Positions 1 to 54,300 of a DNA stretch of 64,000 bases are shown one piece after another. The stretch covers positions 5,288,458 to 5,352,457 of the forward strand of contig NC_067202.1 of NCBI RefSeq assembly GCF_000699445.3, given 5' to 3'. The stretch is from Schistosoma haematobium (Eukaryota > Platyhelminthes > Trematoda > Strigeidida > Schistosomatidae). The notes under the pieces were generated by a model. It ran no database searches, was not told the DNA's origin, and saw nothing but the letters and a program-made list of their open reading frames with translations. The stretch's first letter is position 1. Each line of letters begins with the position of its first letter. The position numbers were made by a program, and so were the translations under genes.

Positions 1-933
1 GGATACAATTATATCTTTACATGCATCGACAGGTTTACACGATGGCCGGTAGCAGTACCGATAAAAGACACCTCAGCTGAAGCGGTAGCCAAAACCCTAG
101 TTGAAAATTGGATTTCGTACTACGGTGTGCCAACAATTATCACAACTGATAGAGGAGCACAATTCGAAAGTCGGCCCTTTCAACAGCTTACAGAACTCCT
201 CGATATCAAATGAATGCGAACGACATCGTGCCATCCAATGTCAAACGCAATAGTCGAACGCCTACATAGGCAATTAAAAGCGTCCCTTACAGCCGTCATC
301 GTCAACAACGATTGGGTCAATAAATTCTCTTTAGTAATGTTAGCTCTAAGAGCAACAATTAAACATGACATGGGATGCTGTCCAGCCGAGTTGGTATACG
401 GAACTACTCTACGGTTACCCGGAGAATTTTTCACTTCAAGTAAAGGTGTTCCTACTGATGTAACCGGCTGTGTGCAACGCCTGAGAAAGCACATGAGCGA
501 TTTAAAAATAACACCTCCCAGACCACAACAAGGACGAGTATTCATACCACAGGAACTGCATAACAGCACTTACGTATTCATTGGAAGAGATGAAGTACAA
601 CCACCTCTACAACCGAGTTACGACGGCCCATTTAAAGTGATAGCGTGGACAGATAAAACGGTTACCATGGAAAAAGCTGGGAAGACAGATGTAATCAGCA
701 TCGATCGAGTGAAACTAGCTTTCATCGATAGCGATATTCACTCAACAAATACAAACTCCTCGAAGATGGTCACACCAACGAAACACGAGTCTCAAGAATC
801 AGTGACGCTAACGCAGCAAAAAGACGAGACTCCGGTAACAACAAGATCTGGCCGCAGAGTAAAATGGCCTGAACGCATGATTCTTCCAGTTCACAATTCC
901 TTTCTATTTGCCTCCTCTATTCTCCCTAACTAG
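1..933 (+). pseudogene. Ty3/gypsy-type pol fragment: integrase and C-terminal tail
   Basis: One reading frame runs from base 1 to the stop at 931-933, broken by a TGA at 211-213. The part before the stop carries an integrase core with a TTDRGAQF block (second catalytic Asp). Just after it comes an HPMSNAIVERLHRQLK block that supplies the third acidic residue. Then follow an LALRATIKHD block, a YDGPFKVI block typical of the integrase C-terminal region, and a basic tail with TTRSGRRVKWP. This is the usual end of a Ty3/gypsy polyprotein. Boudicca- and Saci-type elements are the schistosome examples of that class, but I cannot assign the family. The TGA most simply replaces an Arg CGA, so the copy is dead. 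Protease, RT and RNase H lie left of the window or are lost. Confidence 0.88.
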
Positions 934-3835: not shown

Positions 3836-3939
3836 GATGTAAACCATCTGTTATTTTATAATTATTAAATCTATTAATAAGTTTTTGTGTAGCTAGTTTC
3901 AAAATATTTTAGTTTTTACCCTTTATACTGTGATTGACT

Positions 3940-4068
3940 CCACCTAGAGCCCGTATGTGGCTACTGCTGGTCCCAAGCCCAGATAGAGAAGGAGAGTTGG
4001 GCCTGGGGTTAACGACTCTATTCCGTAGATAACTAACTCGCCAAAAAATACTCTCTCACCAAAAAAAA
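3940..4068 (+). repeat. Short dispersed repeat, also at 54184-54300
   Basis: The block contains GGCTACTG, then CCCAAGCCCAGA, then GGGGTTAACGAC and AACTCGC. It recurs with the same order at 54184-54300. It may be the leader upstream of the endonuclease region of an RTE-type element, but no coding sequence is attached in either place. Confidence 0.55.
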
Positions 4069-8332: not shown

Positions 8333-8370
8333 ATGTAAATGTTAAAATATTCCCTTGAATAGTCCACTTA

Positions 8371-8528
8371 TATCAGATGGGTTTTGTGGAGATTATAGTA
8401 ATTTCAATGGTTAAGATCATGAGTCAGTTGAAGCTAGACCACCATGGAAAACCTGGAAGCACAGCTTCAACTGACTGATGATCTTAACCATTGAAATTAC
8501 TACAATCTCCACAAAACCCATCTGATAT
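8371..8528. repeat. Fold-back palindrome made of SINE tails
   Basis: Two nearly perfect arms of about 63 bp (TATCAGATGGGTTTTGTGGA... on the left and its reverse complement ending at about 8524) enclose a loop of about 27 nt. Both arms are the 3' tail of the hammerhead SINE. The right arm is in the same orientation as the SINE copy that begins at about 8525. Confidence 0.85.
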
Positions 8529-8905
8529 TAATCAACATATGCTCACTAGTGACTGGTTTCAAGAGGTATATCCTGGAGTTCTAGTGAGAAGTAGTATTCA
8601 GTAGAGTTCAACCAGGTCTGTTGTGAGATAGGAACTCACTGAAGACAGTAGTGGATGTGTCGCTCAATTCCGTGGATTAGTTGAAGTTAGACATTAACAC
8701 CGGTGGATGCCGGCCGGCTCAGTGGTCTAGTGGTTAAGTGCTCGCGCACGAAACCAGTTAGTCCTGAGTTCGAATCCCGCAGGGGGCGAGGTCGTGGATG
8801 CACTTTGCTGAGGAGTCCCACAATAGGACGAAACGGCCGTCCAGTGCTTCCAGGTTTTCCATGGTGGTCTAGCTTCAACTGACTCATGATCTTAACCATT
8901 GAAGT
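8463..8905 (+). mobile_element. Hammerhead SINE copy 1, tail-head-body arrangement
   Basis: The order is SINE tail (8463-8524), 5' region (8529 onward, CTCACTAGTGACTGG... TCTAGTGAGAAG), the conserved AAGTTAGACATTAACACCGGTGGATGCC, and a tRNA-like head with A-box-like GGCTCAGTGGTCTAGTGG and B-box-like GAGTTCGAATCCC. Then come the hammerhead (8800-8848) and the tail TGGTGGTCTAGCTTCAACTGA. The tail copy in front of the 5' end is what a head-to-tail dimer would leave. The promoter boxes imply RNA polymerase III transcription, as in Sm-alpha. Confidence 0.85.
8800..8848 (+). ncRNA. Hammerhead ribozyme, intact core, weakened stem I
   Basis: The core is CTGAGGA at 8808-8814. Stem II is GTCC/GGAC, followed by GAAA, then the self-complementary stem III ACGGCCGT, and the cleavage site GTC before CAGTGC. 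Stem I has lost register on the 5' side (GCACTTTG instead of GCACTG). Confidence 0.75.
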
Positions 8906-9154
8906 CTATTTATAATTTGACAAATGATTTAATGTAATTAGTCTAATTAAGTTTGTTTCAAGCTTAGGACAATATAATCGATAATGTGCTTACATAACTA
9001 ACCCCATATATACACACATATAATGTCATAATTCATAATTGACAGAACTGATTTAGGTATGATTCATTGTTCAAACTAATTGATGACTCATGTTTGTATG
9101 ACATAATTTATAATCAATATAATATTGATTTATCTCCTACAGATATTGATATCA

Positions 9155-9289
9155 TGAATGGATGGACGTTAGACCACCATTGGAAACTTGGAAGCACTGG
9201 ACAGCTGTTTCGTTCTAGTATGAAACTCTTCAGCAGTGCTCACCCACGATTTTGCACATGGGACTCAAACCCAGGACCTTCAGTCTTGT
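9155..9289 (-). mobile_element. Hammerhead SINE copy 2, truncated at its head
   Basis: Minus-strand tail and hammerhead (9194-9239), then a B-box region (reverse complement of GACTCAAACCCAGGACC). The rest of the tRNA-like head is replaced by an LTR fragment starting at about 9290. Confidence 0.8.
9194..9239 (-). ncRNA. Hammerhead ribozyme with covarying stems
   Basis: Minus strand: GCACTG, core CTGAAGA, stem II GTTT/GAAC with loop CATACTA, GAAA, stem III ACAGCTGT, then GTC and CAGTGC. Relative to the family (stem II GTCC/GGAC, stem III ACGGCCGT), changes occur on both sides of stems II and III and pairing is kept. All catalytic positions are present. Confidence 0.78.
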
Positions 9290-9510
9290 TATAACTTATC
9301 GACCAGACCAATGACGTATAAACCTGTACAATCAGTGTAGAAACTTGATCGGTCCTTCCTACCGCCTAGCTCTGTCTGTTAAGTCTAGAACACCAACATC
9401 AACCTCTGCAATATGAATCCTTATATTTCAGACAGACTGGGATTATATACAAACCAAACAGACTATATCGTACCATAAAATAGTAAATAACACTTTTACA
9501 AGATATTTTT
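9290..9510 (-). mobile_element. Partial LTR of the ~520-bp family
   Basis: This matches, in minus orientation, the solo LTR at 18504-19020. Shared blocks are AGAACACCAACATCAACCTCTG, AAACCAAACAGACTATATCGTACCATAAAATAG and CTAGCTCTGTCTGTTAAGTC. Only the 3' half of the LTR is present. Confidence 0.65.
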
Positions 9511-9597
9511 AAGCAATGTCATCTTAGCAGTTGACTTCTCTGACGTTTCATATTGACTAGTTTAATAAACGTTAGGTATTAGCTCAGACGTAACTAG

Positions 9598-9601
<4 letters not shown>

Positions 9602-9645
<44 letters not shown>
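9602..9645. repeat. (TA)n microsatellite
   Basis: About 22 uninterrupted TA units sit directly beside the 3' tail of the SINE at 9646. Confidence 0.97.
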
Positions 9646-9648
<3 letters not shown>

Positions 9649-10053
9649 AAGTTGAAATCATGAGCCAATTGAAGCTAGACCACCATGAAAGACCTGGAAG
9701 CACTGGACGGCCGTTTCGTCCTAGTATGGGACTCCTCAGCAGTGCGCATCCACGAACCCGCCCCCGCGGGATTCGAACCCAGGACCTACTGGCTTCGCGC
9801 GCGAGCACTTAACCATTAGACCACTGAGCCGGCATCCAACGGTGTTAATGTCTAACTTCAACCAATCCACGAAGTTGCGCCACCGTACACCATTGTCCTC
9901 AGTGAGTTCCTGTCTCACAACAGACCTGGTTGAACTCCACTGGTAACGACTTCTCACTAGAACTCCAGGAGTGTCTCCTGAAGTCAGTCACTAGTGAGCA
10001 GGTGATTATTATTATCAGAATGGGTTTTGTAGAGATTTTTAGAAATTTCACAA
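9646..10053 (-). mobile_element. Hammerhead SINE copy 3, near full length
   Basis: Minus strand from right to left: a piece of SINE tail (10009-10053), the 5' region (TCTAGTGAGAAG, GAGTTCAACCAGGTC, AAGTTAGACATTAACACCG), the tRNA-like head with A box TGCCGGCTCAGTGGTC and B box GGGTTCGAATCCC, the intact hammerhead, and the tail. The head is again preceded by its own tail in the same orientation. It is joined head to head with the next copy. Confidence 0.88.
9700..9745 (-). ncRNA. Hammerhead ribozyme, consensus-like
   Basis: Minus strand: stem I GCACTG/CAGTGC perfect, core CTGAGGA, stem II GTCC-CATACTA-GGAC, GAAA, stem III ACGGCCGT, cleavage triplet GTC. Every conserved hammerhead position is present. 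It is a type I layout with a very short stem III, as in Sm-alpha. Confidence 0.85.
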
Positions 10054-10287
10054 GTTGGATGCCGGCTCAGTGGTCTAATGGTTAAGTGCTCGCGCGCGAA
10101 GCCAGTAGGTCCTGGGTTCGAATCCCGCGGGGGCGGGTTCGTGGATGCGCACTGCTGAGGAGTCCCATACTAGGACGAAACGGCCGTCCAGTGCTTCCAG
10201 GTCTTTCATGGTGGTCTAGCTTCAATTGGCTCATGACTTTAACTTGTGAAATTTCTAAAAATCTCCACAAAACCCATTCTGATAATA
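10054..10287 (+). mobile_element. Hammerhead SINE copy 4, 5'-truncated, head to head with copy 3
   Basis: It starts at GGATGCCGGCTCAGTGG (A box) and has the B box GGGTTCGAATCC (about 10114-10125), the intact hammerhead and the full tail ending in CCACAAAACCCATTCTGATAAT. The inverted tail piece at 10012-10053 and this copy's tail at 10242-10287 form terminal inverted arms of about 45 bp. Confidence 0.88.
10149..10194 (+). ncRNA. Hammerhead ribozyme, consensus-like
   Basis: Identical in all core and stem positions to the copy at 9700-9745: GCACTG, CTGAGGA, GTCC/GGAC, GAAA, ACGGCCGT, GTC, CAGTGC. Confidence 0.85.
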
Positions 10288-10309
10288 TATATATATATGT
10301 ATATATATG

Positions 10310-11170
10310 TAATTATTCAATCAAGTCGTAAGGCGTAGACTTCTCGGTTAAGATTCGTAAGGAAATCATTATCTATGGTAGAAGATATTGAGTAGCATAG
10401 CCAAAATTGTTTAATTTAAAACTGTATTCCATGTGTTTAGATGTGTATCGCAATCGAAATCATATCCGTTACTATACTTCCCACCTCTCCGCATACTAAC
10501 ATAAGATATGGATACCTGGCCTGTCATATAACTGTGCCAGAATCTAGATTGTCTATTTTAAACCAATTAAAATATTGCCATTGGTCAGGTGATTTAAACA
10601 ACACTATACTTCCAGAGTATTTTATCAGTTTCATACTATTCCAAGGACAGAAACGTCTTCACACCAGCCTGTAAAAACAATAGATGATCATCAATACGTA
10701 TGAATGTATTGTATTATCATAATGTTGCTTTCAAATTTTTACTACAGACAACTTTGGATATTTGGTCGTAATCAATCCAGTTCTTTGAGCAACCATAATT
10801 TTGTGTTGATTGAAACTATAACATGATGGTGTGTATGTGTTTGAAGTAATACGATTAGTAATGGCCTGGACTTTCATCGATAAACTAGTATTTGTAAATT
10901 ATAACTTTCTTGAAATGTCTACGGTCATTTACCATTATTAAACAGTGGTAGGCTGAAACGTTTTCAGATTGTATTCAGTCGATTGACGGTTTCTCAGATA
11001 ATAAATTTATTCGTGGTACAGTTATACCTGATCGTGTTTAATTCAAGTGACGGTTGTATAGTTCTAGTATATGAAAGCCCAATATTTTCAGTTCAGTCAT
11101 AGCAAATGTTGCGTTAATCTGATTTATTGAATGTAAGACTTAAATGGTTATGTACAAAGTACTTACCAAT
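10310..11170. other. Spacer, nothing recognised
   Basis: AT-rich. A 77-codon open frame at 10441-10674 has no recognisable motif and looks like chance. Confidence 0.4.
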
Positions 11171-11171
11171 A

Positions 11172-11450
11172 AATTACAAACATTACTTTACTTACTTTAC
11201 TTACGCCTGTTACTCCTAATGGAGCATAGACAGCCGACCGGCATTCTCCAACCCACTCTGTCTTGGGCCTTTTCTGGTTCCATTCAATTCTTGTTCATTT
11301 TTCTCATGTCTATTTCCATTTCCCGTCGTAATGTGTTCTTTGGTCTTCCTCTTTTCCTTTGGCCTTGAAGGTTTCATGTGAGGGTTTGTCTTGTGACGCA
11401 GTTTGGTGCTTTCCTCAATCCACTTCCAGCGCTTCCTGACCAGACAAACA
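11172..11450 (-). pseudogene. RTE-B 3' fragment, decayed
   Basis: The right-to-left sequence matches the RTE-B 3' end: the tail AGTAACAGGCGTAAGTAAAG at about 11190-11220 and, upstream, a decayed C-terminal domain. Frames are broken and the C-terminal block is partly missing. Confidence 0.75.
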
Positions 11451-11558
11451 TTACATATAGTGAAATATTATCGAATATAAATAAGAGTTGATTCGAGGCA
11501 TAATGAAAGAGGATTTGATTTAATGGTATTCTGTTCACGTTGTTATTCTTGTTTTCTT

Positions 11559-11578
11559 ACACACACACACACACACAC
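11559..11578. repeat. (CA)n microsatellite
   Basis: About ten AC units. Confidence 0.9.
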
Positions 11579-11599
11579 ATGTTAACTGACCATATTAAT

Positions 11600-12255
11600 A
11601 TACAGTGGTCTTGAGTGCTGTAATTGACCATAGATGTCTTAGAAATATTGCTCACATCTTCTGGGATCACCTGGTAAGTAATAATGAGGTTAGACACAGG
11701 GTATTAGGGAGTGATGGTAAATCGGTTGATGAAGTTGTGAATCTTCATCGACTGAGATGGTTGTGTCACGTATTACGCATACCTAACCACCGATTACCAC
11801 TGCGCTCAACACTGACTGGTGTTGGGGACGAGTGGAAGGAAGATAGAGGTGGCCAAATCAAAACGTGGTATCAGTGCTTGAAGTCACTAACTTCTGGTCT
11901 GAGCCATGTTGGTATATGCAGACTACTTGGTTGGGGTCAGCGTGACTATCATAACCAATGGTTGGAGACTGTGGGTGACATGGCTCAGAATGGATCACAA
12001 TGGCGTAGGTGTATACACTCTTTGTCTTCCCTTAAACCGTGAACTTAAAATTACTTCATTCCTTTCTTTCTACGAACTAATTCTTTCTTCCTGTACTATG
12101 TCCTTATATGCAATCTTTCCTTTTACATATTACTATTATTGGAGTGACTACTTTTATGAATTTGGTGTTCATCTTGTCTATGCTAATGAGGTGTGGCAAC
12201 TTGAACGGATGCATACCTGTGCCTGGTCCTACGTTGTAGATGACTGACTGACTGA
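11600..12255 (+). pseudogene. RTE-A 3' fragment
   Basis: One open frame (11605-12039) encodes the RTE-A C-terminal domain: [65 protein letters not shown] and [15 protein letters not shown]. The 3' UTR (GCTAATGAGGTGTGGCAACTTGAAC) ends in CTGACTGACTGAC repeats at about 12255. It is 5'-truncated. The intact frame suggests a relatively recent insertion. Confidence 0.88.
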
Positions 12256-12259
12256 CCAT

Positions 12260-12780
12260 ATTACTATCAATAAGAATTCTTCATTTCAATAGTATTAGTT
12301 ACCTAAAATGAAAATTAGGAATTTGTAATTGATTGATCACTGAGTAGTAGCCAATGTCTTTCTTGTTTCGTCCTTTTAAGCTTTACTGAAATATGTCAAT
12401 TAACTGTTAATACAATCAATCAATTGTCTCTGCTCGAATAGCTTTTGTATTGTACTTTTTTGTATTAATATTAGGTTTATTCAATATTATACTTTAGGTA
12501 CAATATAGAATTCTCAGCATAAAGTATCTCAGTGAGTTTTTGTTTCTTACTTCTTGTTCTATCCTGACGATAAATAGTGAATGATCGCCAGTTAAGAGTT
12601 AGCAATCCAGTCAATAGGTATTTAAATAACTTACATTCTTTTTACTGCATATTGCCAGCAACCACGGTATCTCTGATAGGGTCTTTTGTAACTTGTACAA
12701 CGAAAGTTTATACACTTTTTAGAAACGCACAAAATCAGATAGAGAGGTAGAGACAGGTATGTAACTTAGTACAATGGAAG
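12260..12780. other. Spacer, nothing recognised
   Basis: AT-rich; no ORF or known repeat. Confidence 0.4.
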
Positions 12781-12784
12781 ATGG

Positions 12785-13035
12785 TCATGCAATTTCGTGG
12801 ATTGGTTGATGTTAAACACTAACACCATTAGAAGCCGGCTCAGTGGTCCAGTAGGTTGAGACCGAAGGCCCTGGGTTCGAATCCCGCAAGCAGGATCGTG
12901 AATGCACACCGCTGAGGAGTCTCACAATAGGACGAAACGGCCGTCCAATGCTTCCAGGTTTCCAACGGTGGTCTAACATAATTCGGTTCATGATCTCAAT
13001 CAAAAACTTAATAATCTCCACAACTCCTATACTGA
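12785..13035 (+). mobile_element. Hammerhead SINE copy 5
   Basis: 5' part from AATTTCGTGGATTGGTTG, then A-box-like GCCGGCTCAGTGGTCCAG, B box GGGTTCGAATCCC (about 12872), the hammerhead, and a diverged tail to ATAATCTCCACAACTCC. Confidence 0.82.
12904..12951 (+). ncRNA. Hammerhead ribozyme, core intact, stem I weak
   Basis: CTGAGGA, GAAA, stem III ACGGCCGT and GTC are intact. Stem II is GTCT/GGAC and still pairs. Stem I (GCACACCG with CAATGC) is poor, so activity is doubtful. Confidence 0.65.
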
Positions 13036-13079
13036 AAATCAGATAACTTGTTGAAATATTTAGATGGTAAGAACAGGTA

Positions 13080-13265
13080 GCCAAGATGTTCAAGTAGGCC
13101 GCCATTTGTGGGCAATATCTCAGGTTGTGAAGTTGGATAATACGGAATCGAATCCTCCAGAGAGCACCAACACCTTCATGATTACACATACACTTCGTTG
13201 GTAAGAAGTGCCAAATAGTACGAAAGATAGATTCTGGGTTTCCTTTCGACCACCTTCGACTACAT
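13080..13265 (+). mobile_element. Degenerate Sm-alpha-like SINE
   Basis: CGAATCCTCCAGAGAGCACC resembles a decayed B box and following spacer. AAGTGCCAAATAGTACGAAAG then CTGGGTTTCC aligns with the Sm-alpha hammerhead block (GAGTCCCAAATAGGACGAAAC then CTGGATTCC). Core positions are lost. Confidence 0.35.
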
Positions 13266-13299
13266 AATGTTTCAGGATAAAAAATATCTGGTGGAATAA

Positions 13300-13519
13300 A
13301 TGTTATCAGTAATTTTATCATCAGATACTCTACAAATATAAATCAATAATTATTTTACTACACAGTGGCAAATATAAGGGGTACATAAATGTAATTCAGT
13401 GGAACAATATTATGTTATTAAAATTGTGAAGCTTTTCATTGGTTGCTGTTTACATCGAATGCTCACTACTATCATAAGGACATTATAATCCTACTGTATT
13501 CTCTCTTAACATTGACTAC

Positions 13520-13565
<46 letters not shown>

Positions 13566-14569
13566 GGCCAGTTAAATGTCACTGAGCCCTAACCAAATCA
13601 TCCAGCAGTTGCATCACTGAATATCGAACAGATCACCGATCTTCGTCAAGGTCAAGGATAACCAACATGCACCAGTTAATCGTATGCCATGGACTGATGT
13701 ATGCAGTGGTGGTCTCTCTCTTTGTACTCATTCTTATTAATACATTTTCATAATAACATCCTTTGTGTTATACGATCTTCAAAGCAGCCATGATACTTTG
13801 ATACGTCGAAGGGGTAATTCATGTTAGATATTGACTATGAGGTGTGACTTCGACGTTAACTTGTTCGTCGTACCATTCCCATCTAACTTGAGTAGACTTC
13901 TAGTCATTCGATATAGATCATCTACGTTGGTGATCTACAATATATATTTGTTTTAAATGTGTAGGAACCTTTCATATTGAACTACTTTACATTACTCATA
14001 ACAAAAAAAATACATATATATTTGAGTATAATTCAATATTTTATACAATAGAGCCATGTGATGACATAACCATGTCACACATATTAATTAAAGGTCAATA
14101 TCACATGTAAAATGGATAAATATAGAGAGAAATAGATAGATAGCAACTAATCATATTTCATTACTTTTCAATGTAATTGGTATTATGAATGCTTTAAATG
14201 GTAGATGATCATCATTTACACACAAAAAAAGGTAAAACAACACCACATGTTGAATAGAAGAAATAAAAAGAATGTGAAACCATGCTACTGGTAGTTATTC
14301 ACAAGTAATTGTTCGTTTATCGTTTACTTAATGAATTGATCTTGGACATGAACTGAAAACTAGAAAACACTGAATCCCTGTATGATATTTGTATGGGAAA
14401 TTTCATTCCATAACCTAATGGGTTTCAACAAGATTGAATATGAGATAGTTATCTATTGATGGTAATCAAATTAGTAGTATAAACTATTGGATTCCAACAC
14501 TAATGATGTAAAGATTATCAAGAATCTATTGGGATATTCAGAAAAATTATCAAGTCTAATTCTATGCTT
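13300..14569. other. AT-rich spacer with a (TA)n run at 13525-13562
   Basis: No gene or repeat family is recognised. The (TA)n run is the only structured element. Confidence 0.4.
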
Positions 14570-14860
14570 GAACGTGAAATGGTATTATGGTGCATACTAC
14601 TTATATCGATATAAGTAGTATATGACCCGAGTCAGGAATATAATGTCTGGCAGCAGAAGATGGGGGAAGATCAAGAAAAGAAGAGCGGGAACGCAATACA
14701 ATTTGTAAGAAAACGCATGAAAAATGAAATGTGAGACAATGGATTGATGACTGCAACAGCAAAAGTCCGGTTCGATATGATGGATTAATATTTTGTAAAT
14801 TGACGATTCACTATATGGTTTTTCTATTTTACCAAGTAACTCTGTAAGTTGGTGCTTAAT
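14570..14860 (+). repeat. Dispersed repeat, also at 41925-42230
   Basis: It contains an imperfect palindrome (ACTTATATCGATATAAGTAG) and the block ATGTCTGGCAGCAGAAGATG, GAAGATCAAG, TTTGTAAGAAAAC. The same order occurs at 41925-42230. Both lie near LTRs of the ~520-bp family, so it may be internal sequence of that element. Confidence 0.5.
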
Positions 14861-15165
14861 ACAATTCGGTTGTCCCCATTCGTGTTCTGTTTACTACGAT
14901 ATCATTTTCCTGTTCACCAAATATTGTACAAATATTATTTTCTATTTTATGGCACGCTGTGGTCTATCTGGTTGATATATAAACCGAGTATGATTTAAAT
15001 ATAATGATTCATATCTCAGAGGCTGAAATTGGTGTTCTGGACTCAACTAGCTAGGCTAGGCTGAAAGCAGGGACAATCCAGAACTCTAGACTGCTCGCAC
15101 GTGTTTACGCGTCTTTCATCCGATCGATAAGTTACTGCTCTCTAATCGGCGGTCACATATTATAA
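14861..15165 (+). mobile_element. Partial LTR of the ~520-bp family
   Basis: TATTTTATGGCACGCTGTGGTC, GATATATAAACCGAGTATG and GAGGCTGAAATTGGTGTTCTGGACTCAA match the LTR at 62456-62976. The 5' third is unrecognisable and no target duplication was found. Confidence 0.65.
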
Positions 15166-15169
15166 CAGA

Positions 15170-15632
15170 ATCAAAACAACTAGTTATTACTTTCTGATAC
15201 TAAGATTAGTCTATGATGTAAACTAACAGATTCAATAATCAATACAAACTCTTCCTGTCTCTTTCTGTCTCTCTTTCTCGTGAGTTAAATGATTGATATT
15301 CTAGAATAAGTCTAAAACGTACTTTTAATGACTGAAATGATCTATTGCTTAATATTGATCAGTAATAGAGTACTATTTTAATTAGTGCAAATATATATTG
15401 TGTTAACAAAACAAAAAAAATAATAATAACAGCCTACATTAATTGTATTTTATACAATAGTAATCATCTGGTTATATTTTTATTGTCAATGGTAAATATC
15501 TCACAGAAAAGAAACAAAAAAACACTTCAACTTTAAATTGTTTCCAATAAGTTGTTTGTATTTATCAGTTTGTCATTTAAACAAAAAGATATACGAGAAT
15601 AATACAATTTAAGTAGTTGAATAATATGATAA
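15170..15632. other. Spacer, nothing recognised
   Basis: AT-rich, with short poly-A runs. Confidence 0.4.
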
Positions 15633-16045
15633 TATCAGATGGGTTTTGTGGATATTATATTGATTTCAATGGTTAAGATCACGAGTCAGTTGAAGCTAGA
15701 TCATCATGGAATACCTGAAAGAACTGGACGACCGTTTCGTCCCAGTGTGGGACTCCTCAGCAGTGTGCATTCTCGACCTCGCCCTTTGTGAGGTTCGAGC
15801 TCAGGATCTACTGGTTTTGCGCGCGAGCACTTAACCACTAGACCACTGGGCCGGCTGGTATTCAACTGTGATAATGTCTAACTTCAACTAATCCACGAAA
15901 TTGAGCGACACATCCACCATTGTCTTCAGTGAGTTACTATCTCACAACAGACCTGATTGAACTCCACCGAATACTACTTCTCACTAGAACTCCAGGATAT
16001 ACCTCTTGAAGCCAGTTGATTAATATCAGATGGGTTTTGTGGATA
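15633..16045 (-). mobile_element. Hammerhead SINE copy 6, full length
   Basis: The tail begins at about 15637 (TATCAGATGGGTTTTGTGGA), followed by the hammerhead, the tRNA-like head, and the 5' region ending near 16018. The same 20-base tail end recurs at 16022-16041 in the same orientation, so the unit of about 385 bp carries its own 3' end in front of its 5' end. Confidence 0.87.
15722..15766 (-). ncRNA. Hammerhead ribozyme, core intact
   Basis: Minus strand: CTGAGGA, a strong stem II (GTCCCA/TGGGAC), GAAA, stem III ACGGTCGT, GTC. Stem I is shortened to about four pairs by one change (CAGTTC). Confidence 0.75.
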
Positions 16046-16770: not shown

Positions 16771-16771
16771 A

Positions 16772-17025
16772 AGTTAGACATTAACACCGTTGGATGCCGG
16801 TTCAGTGGTCTAGTTGGTTAAGCGCCTGGAGAGAGACCGATAGGTCCTGGGTTCGAATATCTCGGGGTGCGGGATTGTGGATGCGCACTGCTGAGGAGTC
16901 CCATCCTGAGACGAAACGACCGTCCAGTGCTTCCAGGTCTTCCATGGTGGTCTAGCTTCAATTAACTCATGATTTCAATCAGTGAAATTTCTAAAATCTC
17001 CACGAAACCCCTTCTGATAATAATA
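16772..17025 (+). mobile_element. Hammerhead SINE copy 7
   Basis: It starts at AGTTAGACATTAACACCG. A-box-like TGCCGGTTCAGTGGTCTAG, B box GGGTTCGAATATC, hammerhead, and tail to CCACGAAACCCCTTCTGATAAT. The 5' region is missing. Confidence 0.85.
16885..16930 (+). ncRNA. Hammerhead ribozyme, core intact
   Basis: Stem I GCACTG/CAGTGC perfect, CTGAGGA, stem II shortened to GTC/GAC, GAAA, stem III ACGACCGT, GTC. Confidence 0.78.
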
Positions 17026-17967: not shown

Positions 17968-18112
17968 GTATCAGAAGGGATTTTGTGGAGATTGTAGTAA
18001 TTTCAATAGTTGAGATCCTGAGTCTCACGATAGAACGAAACGGTTGTCCATTGCTTCCAGGTATTCCATGGTGGCCTAGCTTCAATTGACTCATGATCTC
18101 AACTACTGAAAC
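17968..18112. repeat. Fold-back of two hammerhead-SINE tails
   Basis: The left arm (TATCAGAAGGGATTTTGTGG... GAGATCCTGAG) is an inverted SINE tail. The right part is a + tail with a truncated hammerhead (AACGAAACGGTTGTCC) and CTTCAATTGACTCATGATCTCAAC. The arms of about 25-30 bp pair. Confidence 0.7.
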
Positions 18113-23437: not shown

Positions 23438-26400
23438 GTAAAATCACAGTTAACTTAAAGCTTTTACACGTTTAGATCCAGATATGATAAGATTGATTAC
23501 ACCGTTGCGGATTTCGATAGTATTGTTTACACCATAAGTAACCCAAATAATGATAAGAAAAAGATACTTGTCAGTATATTCATTAAATTCTTCCATGAAT
23601 TGAACGAACATGGAGTAAATGAAGTAAGTAACTCACTTGAAAACTATTCATTATATGTTTATAAGTTCAAAATGACTGATTTTTTTGCATTTTTGATTTG
23701 TTAATGTTCGTCAAGAGATCGACTTTTGCGATACATTTTTCTGCCTTTGATTTCATATGTTCACCACTTATTCCGGTAATAAAAGTCTATTTTTTCGTCA
23801 TGTCGGATGAAGGGTCTTGTCGTCGTTTTGTGATACGAAGTTATGCTGGGTATCCCTTTGAAATCAGTTTCCACCGATAATATCTATCTGACATTTCTTT
23901 AAGATTCTTATAATAGCTTATCAAGGAGGTTACATAATTTATCTGACACTTTCTGTAAGAACGTCACGCGTACTTTACCTTAATAGTAGGATTAGTTAAT
24001 GATTTGTCACCTACAACTTTGTTGTATTGGTTGCAGGAAGGCAGATTTTAAGTGGTCAATTGCCTTTTTGTCTAGCTACAGTTTACCGGACGTTTGAAAG
24101 TCATGAATTTTCTTAGGCAACGTAGTGGTCTGAACATTTTACGTTTAAAACTAAGACTACAGAGTAGTGGCATAAAGAAACCCTTCGGTAGATTGAGACG
24201 TGCGCATTGTAAGCTGAAGTGTCATGGAGTCTTCAGGAACAAATTTTCAATTGTAAGACCTCAGTTAATCTCACTGCTAATACTGAACCACCATCCTTAA
24301 AAATCTCAGGAGTAAACCTGTCAGGGCCTGCTGCTCTTCCTCGCTTCAGATTTCCTATGGCTTTTTCAACTTCGTAAAGAGTCGGAGGACCTACACTAAC
24401 TTGCCATTCAGGTTGACTGGAGATCGTGGGAAATCGAAATGTGGCTGAAGACCAGTTGAATTGATCCCTAAAGTGTTCTGCCCATCGATCCAATCTCCTG
24501 GATTGAGAATGTATAATATGTCCATCTTTCTCTGAGTGTTTCGCTAACAGTCGGTTTCCTAATACCGGTTTCCTTAACAAGTCTGAACAATTGTCTGCTA
24601 TTACCTATTGCCGCTGCCTTTTCCATCTCTCTTGCTTTCGCCACCCACCACTGTTCACGGTCATTGCGTAGACTTCTTGTCAGCTTGCGCTTAAGCTGAC
24701 TCCGCTCCTCATTATGTTCAGAGCCAGGTGGAATGAGTTTCTGAGCATCTATCAGTGTGATTGATGCTGCTGAGATCCAGTGTTGCTCCCTAACCTTACG
24801 GGTTACCTTACTAGCAGATATCACTGTTATTTCCACAGCTTTTCGGATATCATTCCATGCTGCCTCGGGGTGAGCATCACATACATGGCTGCCTAACTGT
24901 TTTCCTAGTTGTTCCCGAAATATACTCTTAGCGTGACTATCATTAAGTAGGACCCTAAGAGGTTTACTGGCAGTGTCTTTCCTACGTCCAGTAAGACGCA
25001 GACAAATACGCACTCGTGCTAGAGCATGATCTGAATCTAGGCATGTGCTCCAGAATGAGCGACAGTCTTCTATCGAGCCCCTCCATCGGTGGCTGATAGC
25101 GATGTGATCTATTTGGGTCCAACGTTGGGACGAATTAGGGGGTCGCCATGTCAAAACATGTTTTCCCTTATGCTTAAAGTTAGTATTTGCAAGGAACAGG
25201 CGGTTATCTGAGCATAGCTGCAACAAACGGTCGCCATTATCTGTTCTTTGAGCCACGATGCTATAAGATCCACCCAGGTGTCTTTCCCTATCGCTTAGTT
25301 TACCTACTTGAGCATTAAAGTCACCGGCCATTATTACTACATCCGAGCGCCTGGCTTTTCGGAGAAGGTCGGAGAGCTTTCTGTAAAACTCATCTTTTAC
25401 ATCCTCTGTGCTGCAGTCAGTGGGAGAATAGGCAGAGACGACGAAGAGGCAACGACGAGTGTCCCTATCTTTTCGGATCATTATTGTTCCGTTCAGTCGG
25501 ACAGCGCACAAACGACTGTTTACTGGGATCCAGTCTAAGAGAGCTAGTTCTGCCCTAGGACTCAACGCCATACCTACGCCGGCGAGGCCACGGGAAGCAG
25601 AATCAGGGCTTCCAGATACACGAAGTGTGAATCGAGTCGGTTCTTTATTTTGGCATGGTGAGGTCAAGTGAATGACGCTACTAGGATCCTGTATGCGCGT
25701 TTCGGAGACGCAGCACACATCGATGGCGCGGGATTCTAAAGTCTTAGCTAGGGAAGCCTGCTGTCCTACTTGTCACAGTGTTCGGACGTTAAAAGCTCCT
25801 ATGTGTAGTTTAGAGCGTGGTTTCAGGAGACCAGGAATACCGTTCCGCGTACTTGAATCATTTGCCCTAGCGGTGCGAGGTGATAAAGAGACGTGAGGAG
25901 GGTTAGTCATGGAGATAAGAGAGGTATTAGGAGGTGTAGGAAGGATTTGAATGTGACCAACTTGGTCTCGTGTGCCTTTACGGGTATGAGGGCTGGTGTC
26001 ACTTCCCGGCTGCCCACGCCGTGGAAGGGTATTTCTTGAGGAACCTGAAAAGGAAATTGGATTATTGTTAGTCTTAAAGACCTGGGAGCGTGACCGCAGA
26101 GCCCAAGGGACAACTGCTTGAGGCTGGTCGCGCACGGCCTTTTCGTGGAAGGTTCTTAATGTGTTAGCTCCGTTCTTCAAAGGGCCTTACCGCCGGAGAC
26201 GGAAATCCGTGAGGTAAGGTGAGGTGCGACATTTTTAGGGTCGACCTTTTCTAACCCCACCCCTCCTTGTGGGAAGGCAGCATCGCTCTAAATGCTGGTT
26301 GTCTGAGGGAAACACCTTACTGCTGTCACACCTCTCTACAGTCAGCAGTACGACTTCGCCCTCAGACCTTGAGTTGCTGCTTTTAGTCTTACCGTTCACC

Positions 26401-29400
26401 AATCGACCTGCCTGGCATGGTAGAACCTACAGGAACATATGTTCCAGCCAATATAGCTCGGTTGGGTCATCACGATAGGCAAGCCCGACCACCACGTCAA
26501 GGTAGCAGCTTCGGTCCAGCTTATGGCGAACTGTCATCAGAATTGATTACCTCAAGTGGTGTTCGTCAGGGCTGCCCACTCTCTCCATTCTTGTTCAACT
26601 TTGTCTTCGACGTACTTTTAGAGATAACACTTTCCTCGTCTAAATTTCCAGGGGTTGAACTTCTACCGGGAGGTTCACTTGTTGACTTAGAATATGCAGA
26701 TGACATAGTTTTATTTGGTGAAGACGCTGACAAAATGCAGAGTCTTCTGACCACTCTAAGCAACAATGCAAGCATGTTCGGGATGCGATTCTCCCCCTCG
26801 AAATGTAAAATGTTGCTTCAGGATTGGGTTGCATTGACACCCGAACTAATGATAGGGAGTGAAGTAATTGAGCGTGTCGATCGCTTCACGTATCTTGGAA
26901 GTCTCATCAGCCCTTGTGGTCTGGTGTGTGACGAAATCTCAGCACGGATACAGAAGGCTCGACTAGCCTTTACCAACTTGCGTCATTTATGGCGTAGGCG
27001 AGATATCCGTCTATCAACCAAAGGACGGGTTTACTGCGCAGCAGTTCGTTCCGTCCTACTTTATGGCAGTGAAACATGGCTGGTAAGAGTAGAGGATATT
27101 CGTAGGTTACTAGTATTTGATCATAGGTGTCTTCGAAATATTGCTCGTATATCCTGGGACTATCGAGTAAGTAACGCAGTTGTTAGGAAACGGGTACTAG
27201 GTAAGGATGGCAAATCATTGATGACGTAGTGAAACTTCATCAGTTGAGATGGCTTGGACACGTGTTACGTATGCCCAACGACCGACTGCCTCGACGTGCG
27301 ATGTTCAGTGGTATAGGAGTGGGTTGGAAGAAAGCTAGGGGCGGCCAGACCAAAACATGGCACAAGTCCATGAAGTCACTGACAAGTGGACTGAGTCATG
27401 TCGGTAGGTGTAGACTACCTGGTTGGGGACCGCGAGATGATAGCAACCGATGGTTAGAGACCCTGAATGACATGGCTCAAAATCGTTTGCAATGGCGCAG
27501 GCGCATCCACTCTCTGTGTCCTCCCAAATTCTAATCTTCTGAATTCTTGTCTCTTCAAATTTGTTTCACTGGATTATACTCCTTGAATAATATCTTCAAA
27601 CCCCAATGTTTCCGATTACTGTTTATACTCTTATTACCTCTACCACTACGGGATTTGAATCGACCACTGCATCTCTGTGCTAATGTGGTGTGGCAACTCG
27701 AACTGATGTACGTACGTACGAAGTTCTACGTTGTTACTGACTGACTGACACATAGCACTTCAGATCACTGTTTACACCTCTCTGTTTCTTTTATTATTAT
27801 TATTGTTATTATTATTATTACTATTGTTATTATTATTATTATTATTATTTTAACATATAGATATTGGTACAGGGAGACACCAAATACACTTGTGATTCTT
27901 AATACATAAGAGGTATTTTTCTAGTCATCTTATAGACCTCTGTCGTCATCGTCATCATTTATTATAGCCCTTTGTAGGTTATATATTTTCAGCATAGCAT
28001 TTATCGGTCTTATAACAAGTAATGGTATGCTTTGTTTCAATCTTGACCGTCTTTTCTCAAGGTATTGGCTCGTGAGTATGGTGATTTTCTCTCTTCAGCA
28101 GAGCCCAATCAGAGTGTAACCTTATGCATAGATTTGGAAAAACTACCTCCAGATCATAATCAGTTAGCTCATAAATGTGGTCTTCTAAAAAGATATTGTA
28201 TGGCAGCTGTTTTTGAGAAGTTTTTCGAATATCAAATTAAATCTAACGTGGATTCGGGTTCTAAGAGGGCGGTAATACATTATAGAGACGATGAGACAAT
28301 GTAAGTTATTCTATTGGATGTGTCTGTTTTTGCTAACTAAGGGAGTGGGTAGTATGTCTAGTGTTTTTCCTAATTGCTTATGATAATCAAAGCCTTTTAT
28401 TGTTTTGCAGCAAAAAATTTAGTTATAATTGTGTTTAGCTTAAATTCGTTGACCTGACACTCCGTACTCTTGTGTAAGTTGTTATACTTGTGCTTGGATG
28501 TATGAGGGCTAGTGACACTGGACAGCTTTCCAAAGTAAAAAAGAGGGTGAATCTCACCGTTTAAACATGTAACGTACTGGTTATAATCCTAGTCTTTTCA
28601 ACCACTAACCCAGCCGCCCCTATTTTTCCAGGTAACACGGTTATATGCACTAAAGTTACATGTTTTCTTTATTTATTTATTGTTCATCTTTTTCCCAATA
28701 GGTATGTACAAGCATTAGCTGATCGAGTTACAGTTATCTTTAGTACAACATTTAAAGATCCAGACGATTTGTTAATTGGAAAAGTTTTTATGCAAGTATG
28801 TGTAAATCTGTTTGGTATTTATTTTTTTTCTTTTCAGTTCATTAGTTTTACTTTGTACTAAAATGTTGGGGAGTAGTAGCTTTTAAAAATAAAATTTCAC
28901 CAACAAATTTATTCTTAGTAATATTGGTTATATGTAGTGGTAATAGTATTTGGTAGATGGAATCTAGTCGGTAAGTATTCTTCTAGACTTATGGAATAAA
29001 GGAATTTACTACATCAGTGTATGAAGGTAAATACTATCTCAACTACATTGAAAAGTGAAGCATAAAAACCGTAGTTTAAATGTGACATGAGACTAGATAA
29101 TCAAAAGTATGAGGTAATTTATACTAAGCTGCGAATTCAGAGAAAGGTAGAGATTAAATATAACCGAATCATTGCTATCAGTGTTAGCTATGTCATTAGC
29201 TATATAAATAGAATTCAGCGAGGAAAGTTTTCAATGAAATTATTTACTTAAGTTATACATTCGTATTTATAGTTGTATAGTAAATGTGTCTATGAACAAT
29301 TGTCTACGAAAGGTACTCAATGTCTGTTGGCCGGATACACCATCAGCAACAGCCTATTGTGGGGTAGAACAAACCGGTTTACAGCTGAAGAGGAAGTTAA

Positions 29401-35868: not shown

Positions 35869-36051
35869 ATTGTTCGTTTGAATCTACCCATTAATCAGTC
35901 TCTTATTGGCATATGTGCATAGTGTGCATATTGCCTTGATATAGCCTTAATTCACAAGCAATAATGAGACAATATGCATATGTGCCAATAAGAGACTGAT
36001 CAATTGCAGTCCTAAACATCAATCGGAACATTCAAACAAACAATACCATAT
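35869..36051. repeat. Inverted repeat (~180 bp hairpin)
   Basis: Left arm TATTGTTCGTTTGAAT...ATCAGTCTCTTATTGGCATATGTGCATA pairs with right arm ATATGCATATGTGCCAATAAGAGACTGAT...ATTCAAACAAACAATAC. The arms belong to the same dispersed sequence seen near 8050 and 60060. Confidence 0.75.
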
Positions 36052-38514: not shown

Positions 38515-39690
38515 TTTGATGTATTCAACACTATCATTTCTTATCCTATGGTGGCTAAGAATTTTTTTGTCATAAAAAAGTATTTTTACTGCCCACCATA
38601 CGTGACGTTTGAATTCAACGCAAAATCATGTTGTCGATCGTGATCAGCTCGCCCTATATCTTAATTCTACCACAGTTATTTTAAACTTATCCATAGATTT
38701 CTAGATAGGAAATGTGAAAGAGTATAGTACATACGGACTAGTTTGAATGGTTCTCAAAATAACTGCATAAATTTGAAGCCAGTTTGCAACCAATCAACAG
38801 AGAGTTCTTCTGAATCAAAAGTAAAGTGATGAAACTAGTTGAATAATATTTAAGTTCATTGATTGTTTAGAGCATATTATCGGTTTTCTGATCTTAAGTT
38901 TGTAGGAATATAACTAAATAACCTCAACATGTACTACAAACACTTTATTAATAAGTTTACTGAAAAAGAAAGTGAAATAGAATTCTGACTATTGGGTCAG
39001 GGTCAATGCGGATTACGCTAGTTTATCCATTTACACCCAATCTGTGTTAATATATATATATCGGTAATATACTATAAGCTTCTTTCATAAACAGTATAGC
39101 ACCGTTAACACAGTGGGCCAATCAAAAGTGACTAAATGAGAAGACGACTCTGCACTAATCATAACTCTGCTAATGACAGATGCATGTGATCAATAATGTA
39201 TAAATGAATGTTCATGCATGTGAACCGGATTAGCCCAATAAGTTCTCACTCTGAGTCTCCTCATTGAGTAACCAGTTGACAATTTTCGTATAGGAAGTAC
39301 GTATCAGTATCCGTTGTTGAGATGGAGAAGATTTCTAGCTCAGGTGGACATCGTGCGTCATAGCAACTCTATATTCCGTTACTCGAGTTTATTGAGATAT
39401 ATGTTCCTAACCAATATTGATTCTGATTTTGGTAGATTTGTTATGTTTAAGATATACTAGACAGTGAAGACTGTAACACCTATCCTATGAAGGTGAGAAA
39501 TCAACTTGTAGAAAAAATCAGTAACTCTTTCTTAACTATCACGTGAACTGTAGATTTTCTTAATGACTATAAAAAATAGTCAACATACTAACTTGGAGAT
39601 TTGATATTGTTTTCTAAAAAAAATCAGTAGCGATGACTTAGATTTTGGTCAATCTGTAACACGGATGCAAATTTTTAACATTTCTGTTAT
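38515..39690. other. Spacer, nothing recognised
   Basis: AT-rich; a short TATATATATATAT at about 39050. Confidence 0.4.
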
Positions 39691-39692
39691 GT

Positions 39693-40150
39693 TCAGAAGG
39701 GGTTTTGTTGAATCATCAGTCAGTTGAAGCTAGACCACCATGGAAAACCTGGAAGCACTGGATGGCTGTTTCGTCTTAGTATGGGACTCCTCGGCAGTGC
39801 GCATTCATGATCCCGTCCCCTGCCAGATTCGAACTCAGGACCCACCATTCTCGCACGCGAGCGTTTAACAATTAGACTACTGAGCCGGCATCCAACGGTG
39901 TTAATGTCTAACTTCAACCAATCCACGAAGTTGCGCCACCGTACACCATTGTCTTCAGTGAGCTGACATCTCACAACAGACCTAGTTGAACTCCACTAGT
40001 CACGGCTTCTCACTAGAACTCCAGAAGTATCTCTTGAAGTCAGTAAACAGTGAGCAGATGCTTATTATCAGAAGGGGTTTTGTGGAGATTTTTAGTGTCT
40101 CCATGGTGGTCTAGCTTCAATTGACTCATGATTTCAACTATTGAAATTTC
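39693..40150 (-). mobile_element. Hammerhead SINE copy 8 with extra tail at both ends
   Basis: Tail (39693-39740), hammerhead with damaged core, B box (GGGTTCG replaced by GAGTTCGAATCTG), A box, AAGTTAGACATTAACACCG and the full 5' region to about 40065. Then the tail end again (40072-40100, same orientation), followed by an oppositely oriented tail piece (40101-40150). Confidence 0.82.
39755..39800 (-). ncRNA. Hammerhead-like, core mutated
   Basis: Minus strand core reads CCGAGGA instead of CTGAGGA, stem II GTCC/AGAC, stem III ACAGCCAT, and the cleavage triplet becomes ATC. The stem I arms GCACTG/CAGTGC remain. Probably inactive. Confidence 0.6.
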
Positions 40151-40154
40151 TGTT

Positions 40155-41215
40155 ATGTGTTTCTTTAGTCTTTAACTAGTAAATTTATATTACTATTAGT
40201 ATAGTTTTCTTTCTGTTACATAGTTGGATGTTGCTCATATAATCAATACAAAATCGTGTCTCAGGCTTTGTGACTATACTTTAAGTGCAAACTCTATGGA
40301 GATTATCAAGTTTCCAAAACTGAAATAGGTAGATTAGAGTTGCAACCTAGTGATTAATAGTTGAGAACTCTATTTACTGTGCTATCTCTCTATGTTTTAA
40401 TGTACAGCATTGGAATTTATAACAGAATTCATTTTATTACACTTGAGTACAAAAATTCATGATTAAACCACATATTGTATACACATTAGTATTGATTCAC
40501 GATAAATTATTGTTCATTGTAGTGACTATAAGGTCAAATGCATAATAATTTTTGTGTTAGTTTTGTACGTGAGTAAAATTCTTCAAAGAGATAACTATAC
40601 TGTTAGAATAGATTATGAACAGGTCACAATAATATAAGAGAGAAATATTCATCAAGATAAAAGGTAAATATCTTTTATTCGCACTTGGAATGCGGAATTA
40701 TCGTTTATTTACACTTCTGAATGATTTGAGAACGCTTTACATTTGGTTCAATGGAAATGAAACTGTTATAGTCAAGACTAAGAACTATGAAAGTTTAGAG
40801 AAATAATTCATAAGAAATTATTGTTCTATACAGACTCGCATAATCGACAGCCACTTGTAGTAATTTCTATATCACTTTATGGTTGACATTGATAAAAAGT
40901 AAACATTGGATAATGTATCTGTTTTGCACGAATTAGTGTTTCAATAAGAACATTGTGTGAAATGAAATATACCCTTAGATTGGTGTAGCTTCTTGACAAT
41001 CAGTAAATCTCTCTTCAGACGTTCAATTTTTTTTTATTTTCACTTATATGCGGCTGTCATCGTTGAAGTGTCTTTGCGAAACAGTCTTTTTGACTTATAT
41101 AATCAAGTGTAGATAAAATTTATAACGATCAGTGAACTTGTTTTTTCCTACACACAAAAGTTCACATTAGAGTCAACGTTACCATCTACAAAGCAACGTT
41201 GCACATACCTGATGC
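40155..41215. other. Spacer, nothing recognised
   Basis: AT-rich; no exon or known repeat identified. Confidence 0.4.
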
Positions 41216-52842: not shown

Positions 52843-52844
52843 AG

Positions 52845-54180: not shown

Positions 54181-54183
54181 TCC

Positions 54184-54300
54184 GCCTCGAGCCCCTCTGG
54201 GGCTACTGTCAGTCCCAAGCCCAGACAAAGGAGGAGGGTTGGGCATGGGGTTAACGACCCCATCCCGTAGCAAAATAACTCGCTAAAAAACGCAAACCAG
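54184..54300 (+). repeat. Short dispersed repeat, partner of 3940-4068
   Basis: GGGGCTACTGTCAGTCCCAA then GGGTTAACGACCCCATCC and AACTCGC, the same order as at 3940-4068. Confidence 0.55.

Follow-up and report, generated by a model that had tools for sequence, protein, structure and literature searches.

Copies of a hammerhead repeat in the window

The window, a 64,000-nt stretch of Schistosoma haematobium DNA, carries copies of a short repeat with a tRNA-like head and a type I hammerhead (Table 1). Positions within the repeat (u) were counted from the first base past the hammerhead cut, u1 being window position 8842 with the cut read from the letters, and the reference unit of 408 nt was taken from the copy at 8463–8903, in which the motif CTGATA ends at approximately u97. 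Promoter-like boxes were seen by eye in the head, and ARAGORN called no tRNA in the window. Seven RF00163 matches above the Rfam gathering score lie on unit copies, as does one match below it (39755–39800). An eighth above-threshold match, at 59951–59995, belongs to another repeat. The unit is devoid of an open frame for reverse transcriptase (RT) and GIY-YIG nuclease, such frames being found elsewhere in the genome. Folding of the tail in search of a stem-loop gave no unusual stability (z from -0.78 to +0.83).

Table 1. Copies of the repeat and their features in the window. W, composite; arms are given from first to last unit position; A and B, types of outer end.
Feature	Position	Strand	Basis or remark
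W1, inverted arm, u3 to u95, end B	8370–8462	-	unit mapping
W1, main arm, u30 to u62, end A, 441 nt (one turn + 33 nt)	8463–8903	+	unit mapping
W1, left target-site duplication AGTCCACTTATA	8361–8372		letters; overlaps arm end by a few letters
W1, right target-site duplication AGTCTATTTATA	8903–8914		letters; 2 mismatches to left copy
W1, type I hammerhead, cut after 8841	8802–8845	+	RF00163, 42.7 bits; cut read from letters
W1, post-cut segment u1–u62, ending at site A	8842–8903	+	unit mapping
W1, A-to-B segment ("tail") in main arm, u63–u97, AC-rich	8496–8530	+	unit mapping
W1, tRNA-like head	8713–8794	+	boxes by eye; none by ARAGORN
W2, arm, u59 to u64, 409 nt, A end in (AT)n tract	9642–10050	-	unit mapping
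W2, second arm, about u254–280 to u97, end B	10061–10287	+	unit mapping
W2, type I hammerhead	9700–9745	-	RF00163, 50.3 bits
W2, type I hammerhead	10149–10194	+	RF00163, 50.3 bits
Simple wrapping copy, about u75 to u97, end B, 414 nt	15630–16043	-	unit mapping
Type I hammerhead of simple wrapping copy	15722–15766	-	RF00163, 36.9 bits
Simple copy, u251 to u99, end B	16771–17024	+	unit mapping
W6, mini-composite: minus arm u40 to u94 (B), plus arm u380 to u63 (A)	17969–18111		unit mapping
W4, arm with deletion inside tail, B-like end by eye	39693–40090	-	scored "other" in pairing counts
W4, inverted arm, u17 to u68, end A	40100–40151	+	unit mapping, end scoring
W4, left target duplication ATTTCTGTTATGT	39680–39692		13/13 nt match to right copy
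W4, right target duplication ATTTCTGTTATGT	40146–40158		13/13 nt match to left copy
W5, composite: minus arm in two pieces (B), plus arm u2 to u64 (A); duplication AAATAGRCATTA	52836–53085		unit mapping
Simple copy, u244 to u64, end A	57512–57734	-	unit mapping

Depending on the alignment setting, the copy starting at 15630 ends either at 16043 (u75, 414 nt) or at 16058 (u62, 429 nt). The aligned part of the minus-strand W4 arm covers 39712–40107 (u54 to u49, 396 nt), and a tail piece further left, reaching to 39693, is set apart by the internal deletion.

In a preliminary description of this locus, the end of the tail was said to precede the head on the same strand in four copies. All four indeed read tail, head and tail of one unit and measure 396–441 nt each, approximately one turn. 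The unit length given there, about 385 bp, has to be corrected to the measured 408 nt, and tail and head are not joined in a separate event, as CTGATA lies within the unit. The boundary between tail and head belongs to the fixed sequence of the unit: the gapped pattern CCCATCTGATA-N5..30-GCTCACTAGTGACTGG had 136 exact matches in the 400-Mb genome while the reversed pattern, used as control, had none, and the junction is therefore not due to chance. The spacer was 13 or 14 nt at all places listed among the 136 matches. In three of the four copies, an inverted arm that had been overlooked is attached head-to-head (8370–8462, 10061–10287 and 40100–40151).

Two end sites and head-to-head composites

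Loci throughout the genome were selected as the best-scoring, hence youngest, copies obtained with three queries: the junction, the tRNA plus hammerhead region, and the head. All 40 scored places of the junction query were read (30 as loci, 10 separately), as were 30 of 40 places of the tRNA plus hammerhead query; the head query contributed 10 newly read places of 40 in addition to 11 already in the set. Wrapping proved not to be universal in young copies, occurring at 8 of the 29 loci picked solely by tRNA plus hammerhead identity (L061, L062, L066, L073 and L081–L084), or at 9 of 29 if L063, whose copy is interrupted by another insertion, is included. The non-wrapping copies of this sample begin at about u104–u264.

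The 3' ends of insertions fall mainly at two sites, A and B, located approximately 62 and 97 nt past the hammerhead cut. Among 37 simple copies, 21 end at A and 16 at B. Two arms were considered a head-to-head composite at a separation of no more than 30 nt and identities of at least 80% and at least 72%; the pairing counts leave out L001 and L056 (window copy), the duplicates L010, L035, L078 and L092, and also L061 and L066, which coincide with L003 and L004. Both outer ends of a composite are 3' ends. Of 43 composites, 33 had two classifiable outer ends, and 31 of these paired one A with one B where about 16 would be expected (P about 4e-8 against independence), the two classes having first been noticed on some of the loci later used for this count. 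The exceptions were one A/A and one B/B; in the other 10 of the 43, one end fits neither site. W5 is A/B by mapping and was counted as "other" because of an internal deletion. Correspondingly, the inverted arm is accompanied by the tail on one side only in 31 of the 33 classifiable composites.

This pairing bears on the possibility that the repeat is a conventional SINE moved by an RTE- or CR1-type LINE, in which case its 3' end would have two alternatives and the inversions would arise by twin priming. SMalpha elements of schistosomes have been filed in print as SINE-like. The tRNA-like head and the target duplications of the repeat are SINE-like as well, and LINE-like open frames were recognized by eye in the window. 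Twin priming, however, gives no reason to expect 3' ends on both outer sides, let alone the pairing of A with B in 31 of 33 cases, and the genome's own Penelope-like elements (PLEs) show the same pattern. We regard movement by a LINE as quite improbable.

Target-site duplications, often of 8–13 bp, enclose the whole double copy. They were first checked at 29 of the 30 junction-query loci (L010 was left out). A flank-sharing test was then based on 31 composites and 33 simple copies with a best identity of at least 89% and a length of at least 200 nt; the L083 composite (position 2) lies at a locus edge, the second piece of L019 was truncated, and L012 was treated as a simple copy. At least 8 nt were common to both flanks in 22 of the 31 composites; among mismatched pairs the share was 3.2%, and none of 5000 permutations reached the observed level. 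The targets are AT-rich, with a flank AT content of 0.753 versus 0.657 across all examined sequence. The flanks speak for a composite being a single insertion event. The preliminary description had named independent insertions with distinct target duplications as what would speak against its reading; instead, one duplication flanks the entire structure. Nested and neighbouring copies do occur (e.g. L033). As a general explanation, independent insertions are refuted by the duplications around whole composites, and nesting of independent insertions, recombination or assembly error as the source of the tail-head junctions is also at odds with the constant spacer at the places listed among the genome-wide matches; such an origin is hardly conceivable.

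The 5' starts of 130 arms were compared as well. The fixed 5' start of a linear SINE was ruled out, the arm starts being scattered over the unit. They pile up at u13–48 and in the hammerhead core at u372–377 (10 of 130 arms, 1.9 expected). Hammerhead cleavage is a weak candidate for the main source of 5' ends: 9 of 130 arms start at the cut, with 3.2 expected if starts were uniform, and 5' ends are denser in u13–48 than at the cut.

Penelope-like elements of the same genome

RT and GIY-YIG frames of PLEs are present in the genome; in a Pfam analysis of three PLE pieces, RVT_1 was found in one and no match in the other two. In PLE group P1, a minimal hammerhead is followed by ends near cut+57..60 (L054, L087) and by further ends at cut+123..128 (L045, L046, L050, L054, L087). 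The P1 copies L054 and L087 are head-to-head structures with one A and one B end each, L087 being flanked by the 13-nt duplication TATAATTCTTATG. Group P3, in which L042 is B/A, has ends near cut+52 and cut+78. Thus, A/B ends were present in all three PLE composites that could be classified, L049/L088, L050 and L086 being unclassifiable (L049 and L088 are the same PLE copy, as are L047 and L052). The repeat and the PLEs of this genome share a plan of hammerhead, two end sites, inverted arm and A/B ends. The spacing from A to B differs, at approximately 35 nt in the repeat, 68 in P1 and 26 in P3. Homology of the repeat tail with the tail of P1, the group used for this comparison, was rejected, as no significant similarity was found: the best word common to the repeat and P1 has 13 nt, lies in the P1 3' UTR and was reached by 10 of 300 shuffles.

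As reported, a PLE enzyme initiates at two internal sites next to each other with a "tail" between them, and both target strands are cut and extended (PMC11167929). PLE inserts can carry an inverted partial copy, duplications of 8–10 bp and a 31-bp tail that may be present on one side (PMC3846280). The repeat resembles endonuclease-bearing PLEs such as Pen2a of Adineta vaga and Poseidon of Anolis in its two adjacent RT start sites, optional one-sided tail, inverted partial copy, short duplications and AT-rich targets, and, for Anolis, in the hammerhead. Unlike these elements, it lacks protein-coding capacity, its head is tRNA-like and its hammerhead is a full type I ribozyme. PLE machinery has been described as mobilising foreign sequence in trans in A. 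vaga, where an NRPS gene lies between direct and inverted pLTRs of Pen3a; that was a single event, whereas the repeat is a high-copy, SINE-like family.

For inverted PLE copies, self-priming is the explanation preferred in PMC3846280; self-priming or template switching on one cDNA has been proposed for rotifer PLEs with palindromic junctions. The arms of 24 of our 43 composites overlap by 1–4 nt at the head-to-head junction, and in L049/L088 (P1) the arms meet at the same P1 position with an inverted arm lacking the tail end, as snap-back would give. In most composites, however, the arms do not begin at a common unit position and the junction is therefore not a palindrome; furthermore, within a single target duplication one outer end lies at A and the other at B. 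Such an origin of the inverted arms, in place of priming on both target strands, appears improbable.

Template and mode of insertion

We consider it likely that the repeat is a tRNA-headed, hammerhead-bearing non-autonomous retroelement, which from its anatomy we take to be SMalpha-like, inserted by PLE machinery from a template of more than one unit. From A or B, the copies run back across the hammerhead and on into the tRNA head, each arm probably being cDNA primed by one target strand; as the template exceeds one unit, one copy can contain the tail twice. The enzyme would be a PLE reverse transcriptase/GIY-YIG nuclease, since this genome's own PLEs generate the same kind of structure and since internal two-site initiation and extension on both strands are reported for a PLE enzyme.

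Arms exceed the unit, reaching 609 nt; the template therefore carried more than one unit length and was circular or multimeric. To this extent the earlier proposal of a circular or multimeric template holds; its suggestion of an unrecognised intermediate is not supported. No tandem array with the unit period was present in the sequence examined: TRF detected none of about 408-nt period in the window, and at none of 73 head matches in the examined sequence (duplicate loci included) did another head lie on the same strand at a distance of one unit. The tandems observed were all partial and covered at most 1.5 units. Of 113 A- or B-ended arms, 91 are at least 100 nt long and so run through the hammerhead cut, and 20 exceed 450 nt, most of these stemming from the query in which the junction was required. 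Among arms sampled without regard to the junction, lengths fall sharply after about 450 nt with no clear peak at one turn, which lends a circle less support.

PLE-type insertion from linear RNA, multimeric or read through from a partly tandem genomic copy, would dispense with a circle and is a real possibility, if somewhat short of an even chance. The fall-off after about one turn would then reflect position-specific stops in u13–60. Partly tandem copies that may serve as templates exist (L009, 590 nt; L081, 609 nt), short arms also stop at u7–62 on the first pass (e.g. L040, L024, L083), some arms are longer than 450 nt as noted, and unprocessed RNA was the dominant PLE substrate in vitro (PMC11167929). 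Against a linear template, most arms cross the cut although the S. mansoni hammerhead cleaves extremely fast, with efficient ligation (PMC6155905), and arrays of two full units were found neither by TRF in the window nor among the 73 heads.

With less certainty, the template for PLE-type insertion may be a circle formed by hammerhead cleavage and ligation, because the cut site is crossed by most arms and few arms of the non-junction sample extend far beyond one turn. More specifically, and only tentatively, one RNA, probably such a circle, might serve both target strands via a PLE dimer; we hold this to be rather unlikely. The dimer would nick both strands about 8–13 bp apart, and on a single RNA one strand would prime at site A and its partner at site B; synthesis from each would proceed for up to about one turn, until reaching the other's start, and the two cDNAs would be joined head-to-head. 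A and B would occur once each per insertion because a single RNA serves both strands, and the tRNA-headed SINE would thus be a circular-RNA parasite of the PLE pathway.

Multimeric precursors were reportedly found in the 1998 study of the SMalpha hammerhead. SMalpha and Sj-alpha elements of schistosomes share with the repeat a type I hammerhead and a tRNA-derived head, the latter being putative in the repeat, and the likeness is judged by anatomy; the SMalpha hammerhead was published in 1998, and more than 10,000 copies were estimated in S. mansoni. PLE-type ends, inverted arms and A/B pairing are absent from the portions of the SMalpha literature available. Schistosome hammerhead repeats with a tRNA were published in 2016 as putative retrozymes (PMC4918200), and the repeat is thus not unrecognised. 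Metazoan (non-LTR) retrozymes, described by Cervera and de la Pena with units of about 170–400 nt, likewise combine a type I hammerhead with a multi-unit template (PMC4918200; PMC7229834). Tandem arrays are described for them, whereas none occurred in our sample of the repeat, whose insertion signature points to PLEs. One retrozyme account states that these repeats show no motif identifying the mobilising element, and another puts PLEs forward as a strong candidate. In the available part of the openly licensed literature, no paper was found that links SMalpha to PLE insertion or counts A/B pairing.

What moves animal retrozymes has been an open question, PLEs being named in the available literature as a candidate only. 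Copying from RNA longer than one unit, and probably often from both cut DNA strands, points to the moving enzyme, and the genomic insertion signature of this family points to PLEs as the mobilising machinery. Being abundant and short, the family constitutes a large natural data set on PLE insertion. The A/B rule makes the remark on the one-sided tail in the PLE literature quantitative; mechanisms of PLE integration must explain this rule, which is testable with one enzyme and one small RNA.

The repeat unit and its tail-head junction

The 408-nt unit of the SMalpha-like repeat was taken from the copy at 8463-8903, with unit positions (u) counted from the first base past the hammerhead cut (u1 = 8842). 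Eight type I hammerheads in the window exceed the Rfam gathering score, seven of them on copies of this unit, and a further copy carries one below that score. Genome-wide searches covered 400,267,458 bases on 163 contigs, with the window within contig C8. The preliminary description had named four copies in which the tail end directly precedes the head, and had read this junction as a retrozyme-like sign of a circular or multimeric template. All four indeed wrap, running through tail, CTGATA, head, tRNA-like part, hammerhead and tail again within 396-441 nt each, approximately one turn of the unit. The junction pattern had 136 exact matches genome-wide versus none for the reversed control, with a spacer of 13 or 14 nt at the places listed among these matches. 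Not all young copies wrap: among 29 loci picked by tRNA and hammerhead identity alone, wrapping occurred in 8 (two of the eight being places already found by the first, junction-based query), or in 9 when L063, a copy split by another insertion, is counted. A query with the head alone found 40 places, and all 21 that were readable (one of these a duplicate) extend back into the tail; a fixed head start is therefore absent. The tail-head "junction" is ordinary unit sequence. Three sets of repeat copies (L009/L010, L034/L035 and L037/L092) lie in near-identical place pairs, separated by approximately 14-20 kb or located on C130 and C135, two small contigs, which reflects either segmental duplication or assembly duplication.

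Features of the repeat, of Penelope-like elements (PLEs) and of neighbouring elements (window positions unless marked u or cut)
Feature	Position or locus	Details
tRNA-like head	starts near u280	unit numbering
Hammerhead of unit	ends u408	unit numbering
Hammerhead on further copy	39755-39800	below gathering score
Duplication round composite	39693-40146	13 nt, perfect
Duplication round composite	8370-8903	12 nt, two differences
PLE group P1	L045-L050, L052, L054, L055, L087	RT and GIY-YIG frames
P1 A-type ends	cut+57..60	L054, L087; L049 by eye
P1 B-type ends	cut+123..128	L045, L046, L050, L054, L087
PLE group P3	L041, L042/L028	tiny hammerhead-like motif; cut placed by eye
Second hammerhead family	59906-60155	hammerhead 59951-59995, 44.6 bits
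mir-3492 match (Rfam)	26882-26959	minus strand, 88.8 bits
RT-like open frame	26387-27229	plus strand, by eye
Type-P1 twister (Rfam)	3931-4000; 54173-54242	low E-values, below gathering score

Paired end sites and target-site duplications

The 3' ends of the repeat lie mainly at one of two sites: A, scored as u55-74 with its centre around u63, or B, scored as u90-110 and lying around u97. The 37 simple copies were divided into 21 with an A end and 16 with a B end. Head-to-head composites of two arms, that is, two copied stretches, were counted in the window and in 72 loci (73 sources altogether), yielding 43. Both outer ends could be classified in 33 of these: 31 were A/B, one was A/A (L006) and one B/B (L079), while independence would predict A/B in only about half of the 33 (P ~4e-8). 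At least one end lay off both sites in the other 10, the partner being A in six, B in three and neither in one. The longer arm of the 31 A/B composites was A-ended in 20 and B-ended in 11.

True left and right flanks shared longer words than mismatched flanks (mean 7.4 vs 5.1 nt; 29 loci; the sum was reached in 0 of 5000 permutations). The shared word measured 9.6 vs 4.9 nt for composites, with at least 8 nt in 22 of 31, and 6.2 vs 4.3 nt for simple copies, with at least 8 nt in 8 of 33 (0 of 5000 permutations in either group). Taken together with the duplications round two composites of the window, this flank sharing indicates that a composite is one insertion, bounded on either outer side by a 3' end of the element. 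The weaker duplications seen at simple copies are compatible with a reaction on one side only that is completed through microhomology, as has been described for one rotifer PLE copy (PMC3846280).

A circular or multimeric template

The longest arm measured 609 nt, compared to a unit of 408 nt. The window and loci L057-L085 contributed 52 arms with an A or B end, of which 13 were 300-400 nt long, eight 400-450 nt and one longer; overall, 20 of 113 such arms exceeded 450 nt, mostly at loci chosen for the junction. At least 100 nt was reached by 91 of the 113, which accordingly cross the hammerhead cut. As the S. mansoni hammerhead is reported to cleave extremely rapidly and to ligate efficiently (PMC6155905), these arms favour a re-ligated circle as the template. 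A linear multimer is possible as well, because short arms, too, are subject to stops at particular positions (near u13-60 and at u372-377). At u372-377, within the hammerhead core, 5' ends were enriched (10 of 130 vs 1.9 expected), as if reverse transcriptase stalled inside the folded hammerhead. The earlier circle-or-multimer reasoning thus holds in its general form, given arms of up to 609 nt; ends from -4 to +5 around the cut are only a minority (9 of 130 vs 3.2 expected if uniform), and u13-48 is more densely occupied.

Relation to Penelope-like elements

An RT-like frame search of the locus flanks revealed PLE pieces adjoining copies of the repeat, and a GIY-YIG search gave 24 matches (E up to 0.01). 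Members of group P1 with a 3' part have a minimal hammerhead there and end downstream of it. One of them, L054, has its B end on the inverted arm and its A end on the main arm, and in L087 a 13-nt duplication flanks a large head-to-head composite that has one end of each type. P3 ends at approximately cut+52 and cut+78, with one B/A composite in an 8-nt duplication with one mismatch. All three classifiable PLE composites were A/B; inverted arms with unclassifiable end types also occur in L049/L088, L050 and L086. Pieces of two further PLE groups were observed at most ~1.5 kb from copies of the repeat (L014/L041, L028/L042, L011/L043).

The Anolis PLE is reported to have two adjacent internal reverse transcription starts, with the stretch between them as an optional tail, and to cut and extend both strands of AT-rich targets (PMC11167929); from the published data we computed starts ~85-92 nt past the hammerhead cut. 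A rotifer PLE insert can comprise two direct pLTRs and an inverted one within a 9-bp duplication, with an optional 31-bp tail on one side (PMC3846280). On these structural points the studied repeat agrees with both. The authors of the rotifer study prefer self-priming as the explanation of the inverted part of those inserts. A strand-by-strand model, with A used on one strand and B on the other, is unproven, since the Anolis study detected no start-site difference between strands, observed that hammerhead mutants retain insertion activity and did not find reads beginning at the cut (PMC11167929). No significant sequence similarity was found between the repeat and P1, and we therefore limit our claim to the repeat behaving like a PLE passenger.

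The second hammerhead-bearing family has pieces in 13 of the loci analysed, several of them in inverted pairs (window 35890-36046, L060, L067 and L070), and may be a second PLE passenger. Elsewhere in the window, a strong mir-3492 match overlaps an RT-like open frame, and this microRNA family may for that reason be repeat-derived. Two twister matches were also observed; such motifs are mentioned at the 5' ends of RTE retrotransposons.

The SMalpha hammerhead appeared in print in 1998, and SMalpha has been published as a tRNA-derived SINE. As schistosome hammerhead repeats are likewise published as putative retrozymes (PMC4918200), the proposed "unrecognised SINE/retrozyme intermediate" is not a new retrozyme class. 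PLEs have been proposed in print as candidate movers of animal retrozymes; a search of openly licensed literature found neither a PLE insertion signature for an SMalpha-type family nor a count of A/B pairing. The initial observation was real and correctly seen but partly misread: the repeat is a clear example of a SINE-like element that carries a hammerhead, shows insertions of PLE type and follows an A/B pairing rule at its ends.
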